The notes under the pieces: model-generated | Database searches by the model: none | What the model was told of the DNA's origin: nothing | The model's input: only the letters and a program-made list of their open reading frames with translations | Shown here: one piece after another, positions 30,844 to 36,075 of the stretch | Layout of the letters: every line of letters starts with the position of its first letter | Numbering within the stretch: the first letter of the stretch is position 1 | Position numbers and translations under genes: made by a program | Assembly: GCF_027359595.1 (NCBI RefSeq) | Contig: NZ_CP114783.1 | Location: forward strand, 682,001 to 746,000 | Reading direction: 5' to 3' | Origin: Prochlorococcus marinus str. MIT 0912 | Lineage (GTDB): Bacteria > Cyanobacteriota > Cyanobacteriia > PCC-6307 > Cyanobiaceae | Length of the DNA stretch: 64,000 nt

Positions 30844-31908
30844 TTAGTCATTTAGAGTGATTTGCGCTCTATCCAAACCGGCTACAGCATTTGTAACTCT
30901 CCTAAAGTCAAAGCCTAATGCACGGATTGCATGCCATAAATGACCTTGTAGGAAGAAGAACCCAAAATAATAATGGACATTTGTCAATGCAGCTCGTGTG
31001 GTGTGACCTGCAAATGCAGTGCTATCACTCACATCAACAGTATCGATCCAATAAGGAGAAATACCAAACTTCAGAGCCAAGGGCTCTCCATACCAAGCCT
31101 CGGGATAAACAGTTGTGTTTGTTGCGCACCAAAAAGCTGCAACAATTGCCATCCAACCAATACCCGCCAATGAGAAAGATAAAACAGCCTCGGCAGAGAG
31201 GATACTCTTGCCTTTGAATTCTGTGTATTCGCCTACCTGCTTCGTAGCGATATGGAAAGCACCACCTGTAATTTCAACAAATGCTAAGAATGCATGTCCA
31301 CCAAGGACGTCTTCGAGATTATCAATAGCCAAGAAATCAAATTGATGATTCCAAATATTGGTTAGATTTAGGTTGTACTCGACCTGTCGAACAGCTCCTA
31401 TTGCAGGATCGTAAATTCCATGAACTCTGGCCCATTCAACGAATGCAATACAAGCAACCCCAAAGAAAATCAAATGGTGTCCCAAAATAAATGTCAAATT
31501 ATCGGGATTGTCCCATTCAAGCTTGAATTTTTGAGTAGTAGGTCCTGGGCCATCAGCTAAATCGCCATCAAAGAGAAGAGAATGAGAAAGAGCTCCTCCT
31601 GCATAAACAAGCGAAGCAATAATATGGACAATTGCTACTGAAGCAACATTCGCTCCAGTCCAAACACCTGCATCGTCAAATCCAATTCCAATCGATGCAA
31701 GATGAGCAAGAAAGATAGAACTTTGATGCCCCATGGCTATTGAAGGATCAAACCTAGCCAACTCCCAAAGAGTGCTGGCTCCCGCTGCAAATGAGATTAG
31801 GCCCGTATGACCTGCATGAGCTGCAATAAATTTTCCAGCGCGGTTAGTAACCCTTGAATTACCAGCCCACCACCCATAAGTGACATCTGGATTTCCATAG
31901 GTCTGCAT
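30844..31908 (-). CDS. pcb: Divinyl chlorophyll a/b-binding antenna protein Pcb (copy 5)
   Basis: The 354-residue Pcb protein opens QTYGNPDVTYGWWAGNSRVT and ends HYYFGFFFLQGHLWHAIRALGFDF. It shares its tail pattern (LD-ARxTL) with copy 4 and the GPGPTTQKFKLEWDNPDNLTF loop with copy 1. A TGTAAA (31933-31938) could be its -10 box, but the upstream element of the other copies is not clearly present, so its regulation may differ. Own terminator downstream. Confidence 0.97.
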   Translation of the reverse strand: MQTYGNPDVTYGWWAGNSRVTNRAGKFIAAHAGHTGLISFAAGASTLWELARFDPSIAMGHQSSIFLAHLASIGIGFDDAGVWTGANVASVAIVHIIASLVYAGGALSHSLLFDGDLADGPGPTTQKFKLEWDNPDNLTFILGHHLIFFGVACIAFVEWARVHGIYDPAIGAVRQVEYNLNLTNIWNHQFDFLAIDNLEDVLGGHAFLAFVEITGGAFHIATKQVGEYTEFKGKSILSAEAVLSFSLAGIGWMAIVAAFWCATNTTVYPEAWYGEPLALKFGISPYWIDTVDVSDSTAFAGHTTRAALTNVHYYFGFFFLQGHLWHAIRALGFDFRRVTNAVAGLDRAQITLND

Positions 31909-32864: not shown

Positions 32865-34355
32865 GTGAGAAAAATATTCTTGATTTTTCCAAACCAATTA
32901 TTCAAATTAGAAAATCAATTTTCTGATATTAAAAATATTGCTTTAATCCAAGATAACTTATTTTTCGGTAGCGATTCTCAATGGAAACAAAAATTTCATT
33001 GTCAAAAAATCATTTTCCATAAAGCAACTATGGATTATTACGAAGAAGAGCTTAAAAGAAAAGGTCATAGTGTAATTTATATAAAACATAGATGGGAAAA
33101 TAGAACAGAAGATTACCTTAATGATTTACTAAAAAAAGGTTTTAATCATTTCATTACTTATGAACCTTTTGATTGGTCACTAGAAAAAAGAGTTAAAGAT
33201 TTCTCTTTAAAAAATAATGTAAAGCTAGAGATTATAACAAGTGAAATGTTTTTAACATGCAAAAGTATATCTGAGGAAATAATTAATCAAAAGAAAATTT
33301 ATGGTATGCAGAAATTCTATAGAAATCAAAGAAAAAATCTAGATATTCTTATTGAAAAAAATGGTTCTCCAACCGGAGGAGATTGGAGTTATGACAAACT
33401 AAATAGAAAAAAATTACCAAGTTCAATCAAAGTCCCAAAAATACCAAATTTAAAAACAAACAAATTTGTAGCTAAAGCTAACAAAGATGTTTCTATTAAC
33501 TATGGGGAATATTATGGAAACCATGAAAATTTTAATTATCCCATAACTCACAAAGATGCAGAAGAATGGTTGGATAATTTTTTAATTGAAAGATTTAATT
33601 TATTTGGAGATTACGAAGATGCAATACATTCAAATCATAGAACACTTTGGCATAGTATTCTTTCTCCCTTAATTAATTCTGGATTACTTACTCCAAGACA
33701 AATAATAGATAAATCTTGGGACTTTTACCAATCCAATAATATTGGGATTAATTCTTATGAAGGATTTGTTAGACAAATTATTGGCTGGCGTGAATTTATC
33801 TTATTAATTTATAAACGAAATAGTTTAGAGCTCAGAAATGGGAATTTCTGGAATTTCGAAGATAAGCCAATACCATCTAGTTTTTACACTGGTCAAACAG
33901 GAATAAGGCCTTTAGATGACTCAATACAAAATATTTTAGAAACCGGATATACACACCATATAGAAAGACTAATGATAATTGGAAATTTAATGCTTTTATG
34001 CAGATTCCATCCAAATCAAGTCTACAAGTGGTTTATGGAATTATTTATAGATTCATATGATTGGGTTATGGTTCCAAATGTTTATGGAATGAGTCAATTT
34101 TCAAATGGAGGACTATTTACAACTAAACCATATATTTCTGGTTCTAATTATATTCGAAAAATGTCTAACTATAAATCTGAAGATTGGTGCTTGACTTGGG
34201 ACAGTCTTTTTTGGACATTTATAGATGACTATAAAAATAAGTTCAAAGACCAATATCGATTATCTATGATTTTAAGAACTCTAGAAAAAATGGATCCTAA
34301 TAAGAAAATGAATCACAGAAAAAATGCTAATGATTTCTTATCTAAACTAACATAA
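32865..34355 (+). CDS. Cryptochrome/photolyase-like protein of the DPRP family, apparently without the Fe-S cysteines
   Basis: The 496-residue protein has the N-terminal alpha/beta domain of deoxyribodipyrimidine photolyase-related proteins (IFLIFPNQLFK). The C-terminal FAD domain contains RQIIGWREFILLIYKR, YTHHIERLMIIGNLMLL and GGLFTTKPYISGSNYIRKMS. Characterised members (Agrobacterium PhrB, Rhodobacter CryB) bind a [4Fe-4S] cluster by four cysteines. Here the expected C-x-x-C loop after the KMSNYK stretch is absent, reduced to KSEDWCLTWDSLFW, and the NCM position reads DDSIQN. Only four cysteines exist, and none is paired. Activity as a 6-4 photolyase or a photoreceptor is open. The start is GTG. 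Confidence 0.85.
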   Translation: MRKIFLIFPNQLFKLENQFSDIKNIALIQDNLFFGSDSQWKQKFHCQKIIFHKATMDYYEEELKRKGHSVIYIKHRWENRTEDYLNDLLKKGFNHFITYEPFDWSLEKRVKDFSLKNNVKLEIITSEMFLTCKSISEEIINQKKIYGMQKFYRNQRKNLDILIEKNGSPTGGDWSYDKLNRKKLPSSIKVPKIPNLKTNKFVAKANKDVSINYGEYYGNHENFNYPITHKDAEEWLDNFLIERFNLFGDYEDAIHSNHRTLWHSILSPLINSGLLTPRQIIDKSWDFYQSNNIGINSYEGFVRQIIGWREFILLIYKRNSLELRNGNFWNFEDKPIPSSFYTGQTGIRPLDDSIQNILETGYTHHIERLMIIGNLMLLCRFHPNQVYKWFMELFIDSYDWVMVPNVYGMSQFSNGGLFTTKPYISGSNYIRKMSNYKSEDWCLTWDSLFWTFIDDYKNKFKDQYRLSMILRTLEKMDPNKKMNHRKNANDFLSKLT

Positions 34356-34481
34356 TAATTTCAACTAACATGTTAAGAGTTGGTCAATTTCAATTATATT
34401 TGTCTAGGTGATGTTTTTACGCCAAAGGAAAGCTCTCGAAAAAAAAAGAATTAACTATAATTTGATTTTGGTTTTTACATA

Positions 34482-34931
34482 GTGAAGCTGAAAATTGGTG
34501 ATCAGATTCCATCTTTTTCCTTAAAAGATCAAAATGGAAACATAAGAACATCTAATAAAGTGAGTAAGTCCCTAGTTTTGTTTTTTTACCCAAAAGACGA
34601 TACTCCTGGTTGCACTATAGAAGCTTGTGGTTTCCGAGATAAATATGATCTTTTCAAAATTCTAGGGGCTGAGGTATGGGGAATAAGCAATGGTAGTAGT
34701 CAAAGTCATCTTGGATTTGCAAATAAAAATAAGCTTCAGTATCCATTACTTTGCGACCAAAATAATATTCTTAGAAAAAAATTTGGTGTACCCAAGAAGT
34801 TAGGATTAATTGAAGGAAGAGTAACATATATAATCAACTCCGATGGAATAATCATTCATATTTTTGAGGATCTTTTAAATGGTCCAGCTCATATAAAAGA
34901 GGCCATAAAAGCATTAAAGAAACTCCAATAA
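34482..34931 (+). CDS. Thioredoxin-dependent peroxiredoxin (Bcp/PrxQ type)
   Basis: The 149-residue protein detoxifies peroxides using a thioredoxin-reduced cysteine. The peroxidatic Cys is in YPKDDTPGCTIEACGFRD, where Cys-Thr-x-x-x-Cys is the resolving pair typical of BCP/PrxQ. The conserved GRVTYIINSDGIIIHIF follows. The GTG start reads VKLKIGDQIPSFSL. Its place between two photolyase-like genes suggests a shared light/oxidative stress regulon. Confidence 0.93.
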   Translation: MKLKIGDQIPSFSLKDQNGNIRTSNKVSKSLVLFFYPKDDTPGCTIEACGFRDKYDLFKILGAEVWGISNGSSQSHLGFANKNKLQYPLLCDQNNILRKKFGVPKKLGLIEGRVTYIINSDGIIIHIFEDLLNGPAHIKEAIKALKKLQ

Positions 34932-34959
34932 TAAGCTAATAATCAATATTAATACTCAG

Positions 34960-36075
34960 ATGAATATTTTTAAAGAAGCCAATTATTTATTAGATAATTT
35001 TATTATCAATCACCTTGGTTCATATCATCAGCAAAGGAATTATGATTACGGAGTAGAAAATAGAACTAATGTTTCTCAGATTTCTAAATATACATCTCAT
35101 AGAATACTTTACGAATACGATATCATTGAAAAATTAAAAAAGTTTGACAAGAAAAAAAAGTATACTGATGAAATTCTCTGGAGAAGTTATTGGAAGGGTT
35201 ACCTTGAAAATTACAAATCAATATGGGTTGAGTATATAAATTTTAAAGAGAGCTCATGTAATTCAAACTTAATTAGTTCTGCGGTAAATGGTAAGACAGG
35301 TTTAGATTGCTTTGACACATGGATAGAGGAACTTAGAGAAAATAACTATTTACATAATCACTCAAGGATGTGGTTTGCGAGTATCTGGATTTTCACTTTA
35401 GGGCTTCCATGGCAACTAGGGGCAAGGCTTTTTCTGAAACATCTATTTGACGGGGATGCTGCATCAAACACCCTTAGCTGGAGATGGGTAGCTGGTATGC
35501 ATACAAATAAGAAGCCCTACTTAGCATCTATAGAAAACATCAATAAGTACACAGTTAATCGATTCAGAAAAAATCCAATTAGCTTATCGAATAAAATAAA
35601 TATAATAAAAAATAATCAACATCATTCTAATAAACTTCCTATTCAAAGAAATTTCCCTAATAGTAATATCCTTCTAATGTTCGACAACGATATGAATATT
35701 ATGAACAGATCTAAGTTATTTAATTCATACTCAAAAGTTTATATATTGAGTAATGGAATTATAAATAATGGATTTGAACTAAGTGAGAAAGTACATCAAT
35801 TCAAATTAGACATAATAAAAAATATAAATAACTTAATCCCAAACTCAGAAATATTAAAATCAAACTATATGGCAAGCTCTTTGCGCGGTTATAGGTGTAT
35901 TGATGTTATTTACCCAGGAGTTGGACATAATCTAGATTTGATAAATAATCATGCCAACCAAAATAAAATAATTATTAATTATATATATAGAGAAGAAGAT
36001 CTTAAATATTGGAATTATGCAAGTTCAGGATTTTACAAATTTAAGACATCATTTTATAGGCATAATAAGAAATAA
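34960..36075 (+). CDS. Photolyase-type FAD-binding domain followed by a C-terminal alpha/beta domain
   Basis: The 371-residue protein begins directly with a photolyase FAD domain: VENRTNVSQISKYTSHRILY, LWRSYWKGYLENYKSIW, NNYLHNHSRMWFASIWIFTL and DGDAASNTLSWRWVAG near residues 165-180 match the FAD/DNA-binding helices. The usual N-terminal antenna domain is absent. From about residue 220 comes a Rossmann-like stretch (NILLMFDNDMNIMNRSKLFN) that looks like an alpha/beta domain moved to the C-terminus. Domain order is thus reversed relative to canonical photolyases. Related proteins exist in marine bacteria; the function is unproven. Confidence 0.82.
   Translation: MNIFKEANYLLDNFIINHLGSYHQQRNYDYGVENRTNVSQISKYTSHRILYEYDIIEKLKKFDKKKKYTDEILWRSYWKGYLENYKSIWVEYINFKESSCNSNLISSAVNGKTGLDCFDTWIEELRENNYLHNHSRMWFASIWIFTLGLPWQLGARLFLKHLFDGDAASNTLSWRWVAGMHTNKKPYLASIENINKYTVNRFRKNPISLSNKINIIKNNQHHSNKLPIQRNFPNSNILLMFDNDMNIMNRSKLFNSYSKVYILSNGIINNGFELSEKVHQFKLDIIKNINNLIPNSEILKSNYMASSLRGYRCIDVIYPGVGHNLDLINNHANQNKIIINYIYREEDLKYWNYASSGFYKFKTSFYRHNKK

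Follow-up and report, generated by a model that had tools for sequence, protein, structure and literature searches.

The open reading frame at positions 34960-36075 of the window, by which we mean the whole 64,000-nucleotide stretch of Prochlorococcus marinus str. MIT 0912 DNA analysed here, encodes a protein (Phr7) in which an FAD domain comes first and an alpha/beta domain second, and in which the antenna domain is absent at the N-terminus. Its gene, phr7, very probably specifies a photolyase of the NewPHL/SPL type, predicted by analogy with relatives to use light to repair pyrimidine dimers, its substrate most likely being single-stranded DNA. Membership in the NewPHLs is supported by similarity to uncharacterised homologues and by Haney et al. 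(2022, mBio; PMC9426592), who described phr7 in Prochlorococcus HL and LLI strains as encoding an N-terminal FAD domain and a C-terminal Z-domain, found it to lack the Fe-S cysteines, and identified its product with the CPD photolyases acting on single strands that Emmerich et al. described in 2020. Both architecture and gene are already known: the inverted order has appeared in print under the names NewPHL (Emmerich et al. 2020 NAR) and SPL (Xu et al. 2021 MBE), both as cited in PMC13274461, PMC8948257 and PMC9649867, and, in 2022, as Prochlorococcus Phr7, such that the novelty implied by a preliminary description of this sequence does not hold. A 2026 paper (PMC13274461) credits NewPHLs/SPLs with CPD repair in single-stranded DNA and an inverted domain topology, and according to PMC9426592 single-strand-specific CPD repair is reported for the D. 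shibae and M. mesophilicum members. The protein of the window shares with the Prochlorococcus Phr7 of Haney et al. the N-terminal FAD domain, the short C-terminal domain, the lack of a complete Fe-S cysteine set and an origin in one of the additional photolyase-family genes that HL and LLI strains carry, and we saw no difference between the two proteins. The gene and the parts of its product are as follows.

34960..36075, + strand: phr7, probable NewPHL-type inverted photolyase, 371 aa, ATG start, TAA stop included
34960..35559, + strand: N-terminal catalytic FAD domain, residues 1-200, all helical (Pfam, PDB photolyases, AlphaFold2)
35560..35667, + strand: linker, residues 201-236, of lowest model confidence (block means about pLDDT 69-83)
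35668..36072, + strand: C-terminal alpha/beta domain (Z-domain), residues 237-371, in which helices alternate with five strands and two more helices follow
36028..36045, + strand: terminal GFYKFK motif (family form GFF/Y-x-FK), a signature of the C-terminal domain

The start Met is shared by close orthologues in the alignment. Pfam FAD_binding_7 matched residues 70-191 (E 1.2e-19, 71 bits against a cutoff of 27), the match spanning just model positions 3-130 of 203, and PDB photolyases aligned with residues 11-189; the last ~190 residues matched no Pfam family. The AlphaFold2 model, computed from a 30-sequence homologue alignment (pLDDT 89, pTM 0.88), consists of helices only over residues 1-200 and thereafter of beta 237-240, alpha 251-255, beta 259-264, alpha 276-290, beta 296-300, alpha 301-307, beta 313-317, alpha 323-335, beta 338-342 and two C-terminal helices. 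When folded in isolation, the C-terminal domain adopted the same elements (pLDDT 84). Neither Pfam, the PDB alignment nor AlphaFold2 revealed a PF00875 (DNA_photolyase) antenna domain ahead of the FAD domain. The matches listed by a fold search of the full-length model against the PDB are photolyases and cryptochromes, with alignments the size of the FAD half. The preliminary description had read from the letters a helical FAD-binding domain at residues 1-200, an alpha/beta segment behind it and a missing N-terminal antenna domain, and these analyses bear out all three.

This layout is beyond chance, since well over a hundred genomes conserve it at full length (38-81% identity). The close named relatives are from Prochlorococcus. 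Full-length orthologues within the genus are 58-81% identical, and 113 of the 151 genomes sampled from the sister genus carry a full-length match at about 39-45% identity (row count). Homologues that include the C-terminal domain occur in SAR86, SAR116, SAR11 and Rhodobacteraceae (38-44% identity), while more diverged relatives in other Alphaproteobacteria, one of them full-length and encoded on the megaplasmid of Ruegeria sp. TM1040, retain the N-terminal FAD domain and a terminal W..A..GFF.FK..IP motif, C-terminal similarity to these more diverged proteins being weak apart from that motif. No relative was found in the viral contigs searched, and phage records yielded matches to the FAD domain only (about 24-32% identity). 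Although Pfam and AlphaFold2 confirm the reversed order, there is next to no probability that it is a novel circular permutation which arose independently and is confined to this lineage: the same order recurs in many genomes of two phyla and is published, which refutes lineage specificity. The recurrence of the same C-terminal domain throughout the NewPHL/Phr7 family likewise speaks against the earlier suggestion of a fusion to a new effector domain.

Had a neighbouring gene supplied the N-terminal domain separately, the inversion proposed from the sequence would have lost its basis. Other genes of the window that bear on this or on its surroundings are the following.

30844-31908: chlorophyll-binding antenna protein of the Pcb/IsiA kind (by inspection of the window's ORFs)
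32865..34355, + strand: Phr2-like complete photolyase with a DPRP N-terminal domain, PF04244 (Pfam)
34482..34931, + strand: peroxiredoxin (AhpC/TSA, PrxQ/Bcp-like), ending 28 bp 5' of phr7 (Pfam and ORF list)

Upstream of phr7 thus lie a peroxiredoxin gene and the gene for a complete DPRP-type photolyase, a distinct family member which, unlike Phr7, has the canonical domain order. The MIT 0912 genome is a single 1.9 Mb contig and was searched throughout with profiles; its sole PF00875 protein (C1:1671305-1671769) is part of a canonical photolyase, so that no upstream antenna gene completes Phr7. Only three FAD_binding_7 proteins and the single PF00875 domain were found genome-wide, so that phr1, a gene which Haney et al. 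2022 (PMC9426592) report from LLI strains, was not seen in this genome with PF00875. Within window positions 32865-36075, the Phr2-like gene and phr7 stand on either side of the peroxiredoxin gene, on the same strand and within 3.3 kb. This grouping may represent a light/UV-stress cluster, and the 28 bp gap suggests that the prxQ-like gene and phr7 may be transcribed jointly.

Residues of Phr7 were mapped onto the Synechococcus elongatus photolyase and compared across 45 rows of the NewPHL/Phr7 family.

35170..35184, + strand: E71..W74-R75 (S. elongatus E283, W286, R287), lesion and FAD contacts, invariant in 45/45
35347..35373, + strand: YLHNHSRMW motif with N133 (N349, FAD contact) and M137 (M353), both invariant in 45/45
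35410..35481, + strand: W151 (W367), D164/D166 (D380/D382), N170 (N386) and W174 (W390), FAD-binding residues and two electron-chain Trp

All ten positions (E283, W286, R287, N349, M353, W367, D380, D382, N386 and W390) have identical counterparts in Phr7 and in every family row. R350 of the S. elongatus enzyme is replaced by His in Phr7 and in 45/45 rows, and the third Trp, W314, has no Trp counterpart in Phr7 or the family rows, leaving a dyad (the equivalents of W367 and W390) instead of a triad. Met at position 353 is the residue typical of CPD photolyases. Compared with class I CPD photolyases (E. coli PhrB, S. elongatus Phr), Phr7 has the FAD domain and most catalytic residues in common and differs in its reversed order, the missing third Trp and the last ~70 positions of FAD_binding_7, which go unmatched. 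NewPHLs/SPLs resemble Phr7 in their inverted topology, the lack of an N-terminal alpha/beta domain, the Trp dyad (the D. shibae enzyme is reported with a "mere Trp dyad"; PMC8948257) and CPD-type residues; they differ in that the characterised members are alphaproteobacterial, whereas Phr7 of the window is cyanobacterial and 38-44% identical to marine proteobacterial homologues.

Retention of the lesion-contact residues also bears on whether Phr7 might be a repair-dead light sensor, i.e. a cryptochrome whose output part would be the C-terminal domain. The position of an unnamed domain behind the FAD domain would suit such a role, and the location of phr7 28 bp past a peroxiredoxin gene could hint at oxidative-stress signalling. 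However, the C-terminal domain matches no output-domain family and accompanies the enzyme in different phyla, and published accounts describe the family as repair enzymes (PMC9426592, PMC13274461), all of which makes a sensor very improbable.

The reading that we favour, a light-driven repair enzyme, would operate as follows. By analogy with characterised relatives, the N-terminal helical domain would bind both FAD and the damaged DNA site. Reduced FAD, once excited by blue or near-UV light, would pass an electron to a cyclobutane pyrimidine dimer and so break it apart, the DNA concerned most likely being single-stranded. Photoreduction of FAD would proceed via the Trp dyad (W174, W151). The C-terminal alpha/beta domain is expected from the same relatives to pack on the catalytic domain and close the FAD site, replacing the C-terminal helices of the canonical FAD domain that are missing from Phr7; Emmerich et al. 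are said to have assigned it the role of sealing that site.

A second reversed-order photolyase, encoded by phr4/phr5 or the fused phr6, is reported in Synechococcus and Cyanobium (Haney et al. 2022; PMC9426592), and Phr7 might be conceived as a fused protein of this Phr6 (Phr4-Phr5) type, its C-terminal part being a Phr5 antenna domain that has degenerated yet keeps a light-harvesting chromophore, and the whole possibly a (6-4) enzyme. The marine Synechococcus/Cyanobium proteins share with Phr7 the order of an FAD domain followed by an alpha/beta domain, and their FAD domains are related, that of Phr7 being a clear relative of Phr4 (hhalign E 6.7e-34). Phr4 and Phr6, unlike Phr7, carry four Fe-S cysteines; only the first has a counterpart in Phr7 (C117), which is itself not kept in the sister genus, and counterparts of the other three (C251, C254 and C261 of the Phr4 set, located after the FAD motifs) are absent from the Phr7 alignment. 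Moreover, the Met equivalent to M353 points to CPD repair rather than (6-4) repair. An FAD-domain phylogeny, as the preliminary description had recommended, joined the Phr7 family to the short photolyases of Alphaproteobacteria (100/100), represented by uncharacterised homologues, and set it apart from canonical photolyases; a long branch (100/100) divides it from the Phr4 proteins, those of cyanobacteria included. We accordingly regard a Phr6-type identity as unlikely, though slightly less so than a sensory role. As an observation in its own right, the split pair phr4 + phr5 occurs in several cyanobacterial families, well beyond marine Synechococcus (loci L023 1264-2663, L026, L031, L024, L027, L022, L025 and L030); the two ORFs overlap by 4 nt at L023 (2193-2196), and no Phr5 was found adjoining Phr4 at L028 and L029.

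That Phr7 and Phr5 might nevertheless share a C-terminal module was addressed with HHalign: three profiles of the Phr7 C-terminal domain, each more diverse than the last, were compared with Phr5 and with canonical N-domains. Shallow profiles gave nothing significant against either. The diverse family profile aligned with Phr5 in colinear register (positions 3-97 to 4-90) at a probability of only 2.4%, and its score of 19.3 lay above those of 199 of 200 column shuffles although the HHalign match itself is not significant; against canonical N-domains 8 of 200 shuffles scored as high. HHalign probabilities for the domain as an antenna domain stayed below 3%. As a positive control, Phr5, a recognisable antenna domain unlike the C-terminal domain of Phr7, matched canonical N-domains with a probability of 96.5% (hhalign E 8.9e-10). 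The shuffle result and the order of strands and helices in the AlphaFold2 model, which fits a five-stranded alpha/beta domain, are what a Phr6-type protein would predict; the low HHalign probability speaks against it.

Among the best 50 Foldseek matches of the C-terminal domain alone in the PDB there was no photolyase, the best being phosphopantetheine adenylyltransferases of the HUP class (TM about 0.5). Three of the best 50 matches among viral models, from salmon gill poxvirus, fowlpox virus and a nucleopolyhedrovirus, bear the annotation photolyase or photolyase alpha/beta domain, as a Phr6-type relationship might also lead one to expect, and the same 50 include myxoma M127L, which we take to be a photolyase homologue; these photolyase-type matches have TM values of 0.40-0.54 and none falls below E 0.001. 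Given that the HUP class includes the photolyase alpha/beta domain, the two domains likely share a common fold class, and common descent within photolyases is possible. The natural circular permutation raised in the preliminary description hence stays plausible, with profile scores to the antenna domain that are suggestive only and folds that match the broad HUP/Rossmann class. We tentatively entertain, while thinking it somewhat less probable than its negation, a broader scenario in which the Phr7/NewPHL C-terminal domain is an antenna domain that has diverged strongly and sits at the C-terminus, the same two ancestral modules make up NewPHL, Phr4/5/6 and canonical photolyases in opposite orders, and the Prochlorococcus copy came in one transfer from a SAR86/SAR116-like marine proteobacterium, replacing the Phr4/Phr5 pair of its Synechococcus relatives.

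In the full-length maximum-likelihood tree, the two Prochlorococcus genera form one clade (94/90) nested in SAR86, SAR116 and other marine gammaproteobacteria (98/96). This nesting within marine proteobacterial NewPHLs makes horizontal acquisition probable. On the simplest reading, Prochlorococcus obtained the gene once from a marine proteobacterium, passed it on vertically thereafter and lost it in some cases. An initial FAD-only tree had suggested that each of the two genera acquired it separately (90/69 and 94/74), an explanation dropped because the full-length tree, with more SAR86/SAR116 rows, gave one clade.

Over twelve close orthologues the FAD part had a median dN/dS of 0.13 and the C-terminal domain one of 0.29, indicating purifying selection on both halves; the linker had the highest value (0.30). 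Within the genus, phr7 carries in-frame stops in two genomes, G022 (L020, G022:C5) and G034 (L014, G034:C32), is reduced to short fragments in two others, G026 (G026:C4) and G016 (G016:C10), and has no full match in some near-complete genomes (G005, G031, G039). Such absence or decay in several relatives indicates that the gene is dispensable. We also note a related Prochlorococcus genome (L021, G028:C8, 1028-1935) in which the FAD half has been lost and an ORF for the C-terminal domain alone remains, 143 aa long, beginning at a Met equivalent to residue ~245 and 26 bp past the peroxiredoxin stop codon.

The domain inversion noticed from raw sequence is thus genuine, in a gene whose family already has a name. 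What the present analysis adds is evolutionary: the same enzyme occurs in SAR11, SAR86, SAR116 and Prochlorococcus, which are among the most abundant lineages of the surface ocean, and in Prochlorococcus it appears to have been horizontally acquired and to be decaying in some relatives. A structure of Phr7 would bear directly on whether the antenna module can move between the ends of photolyases.
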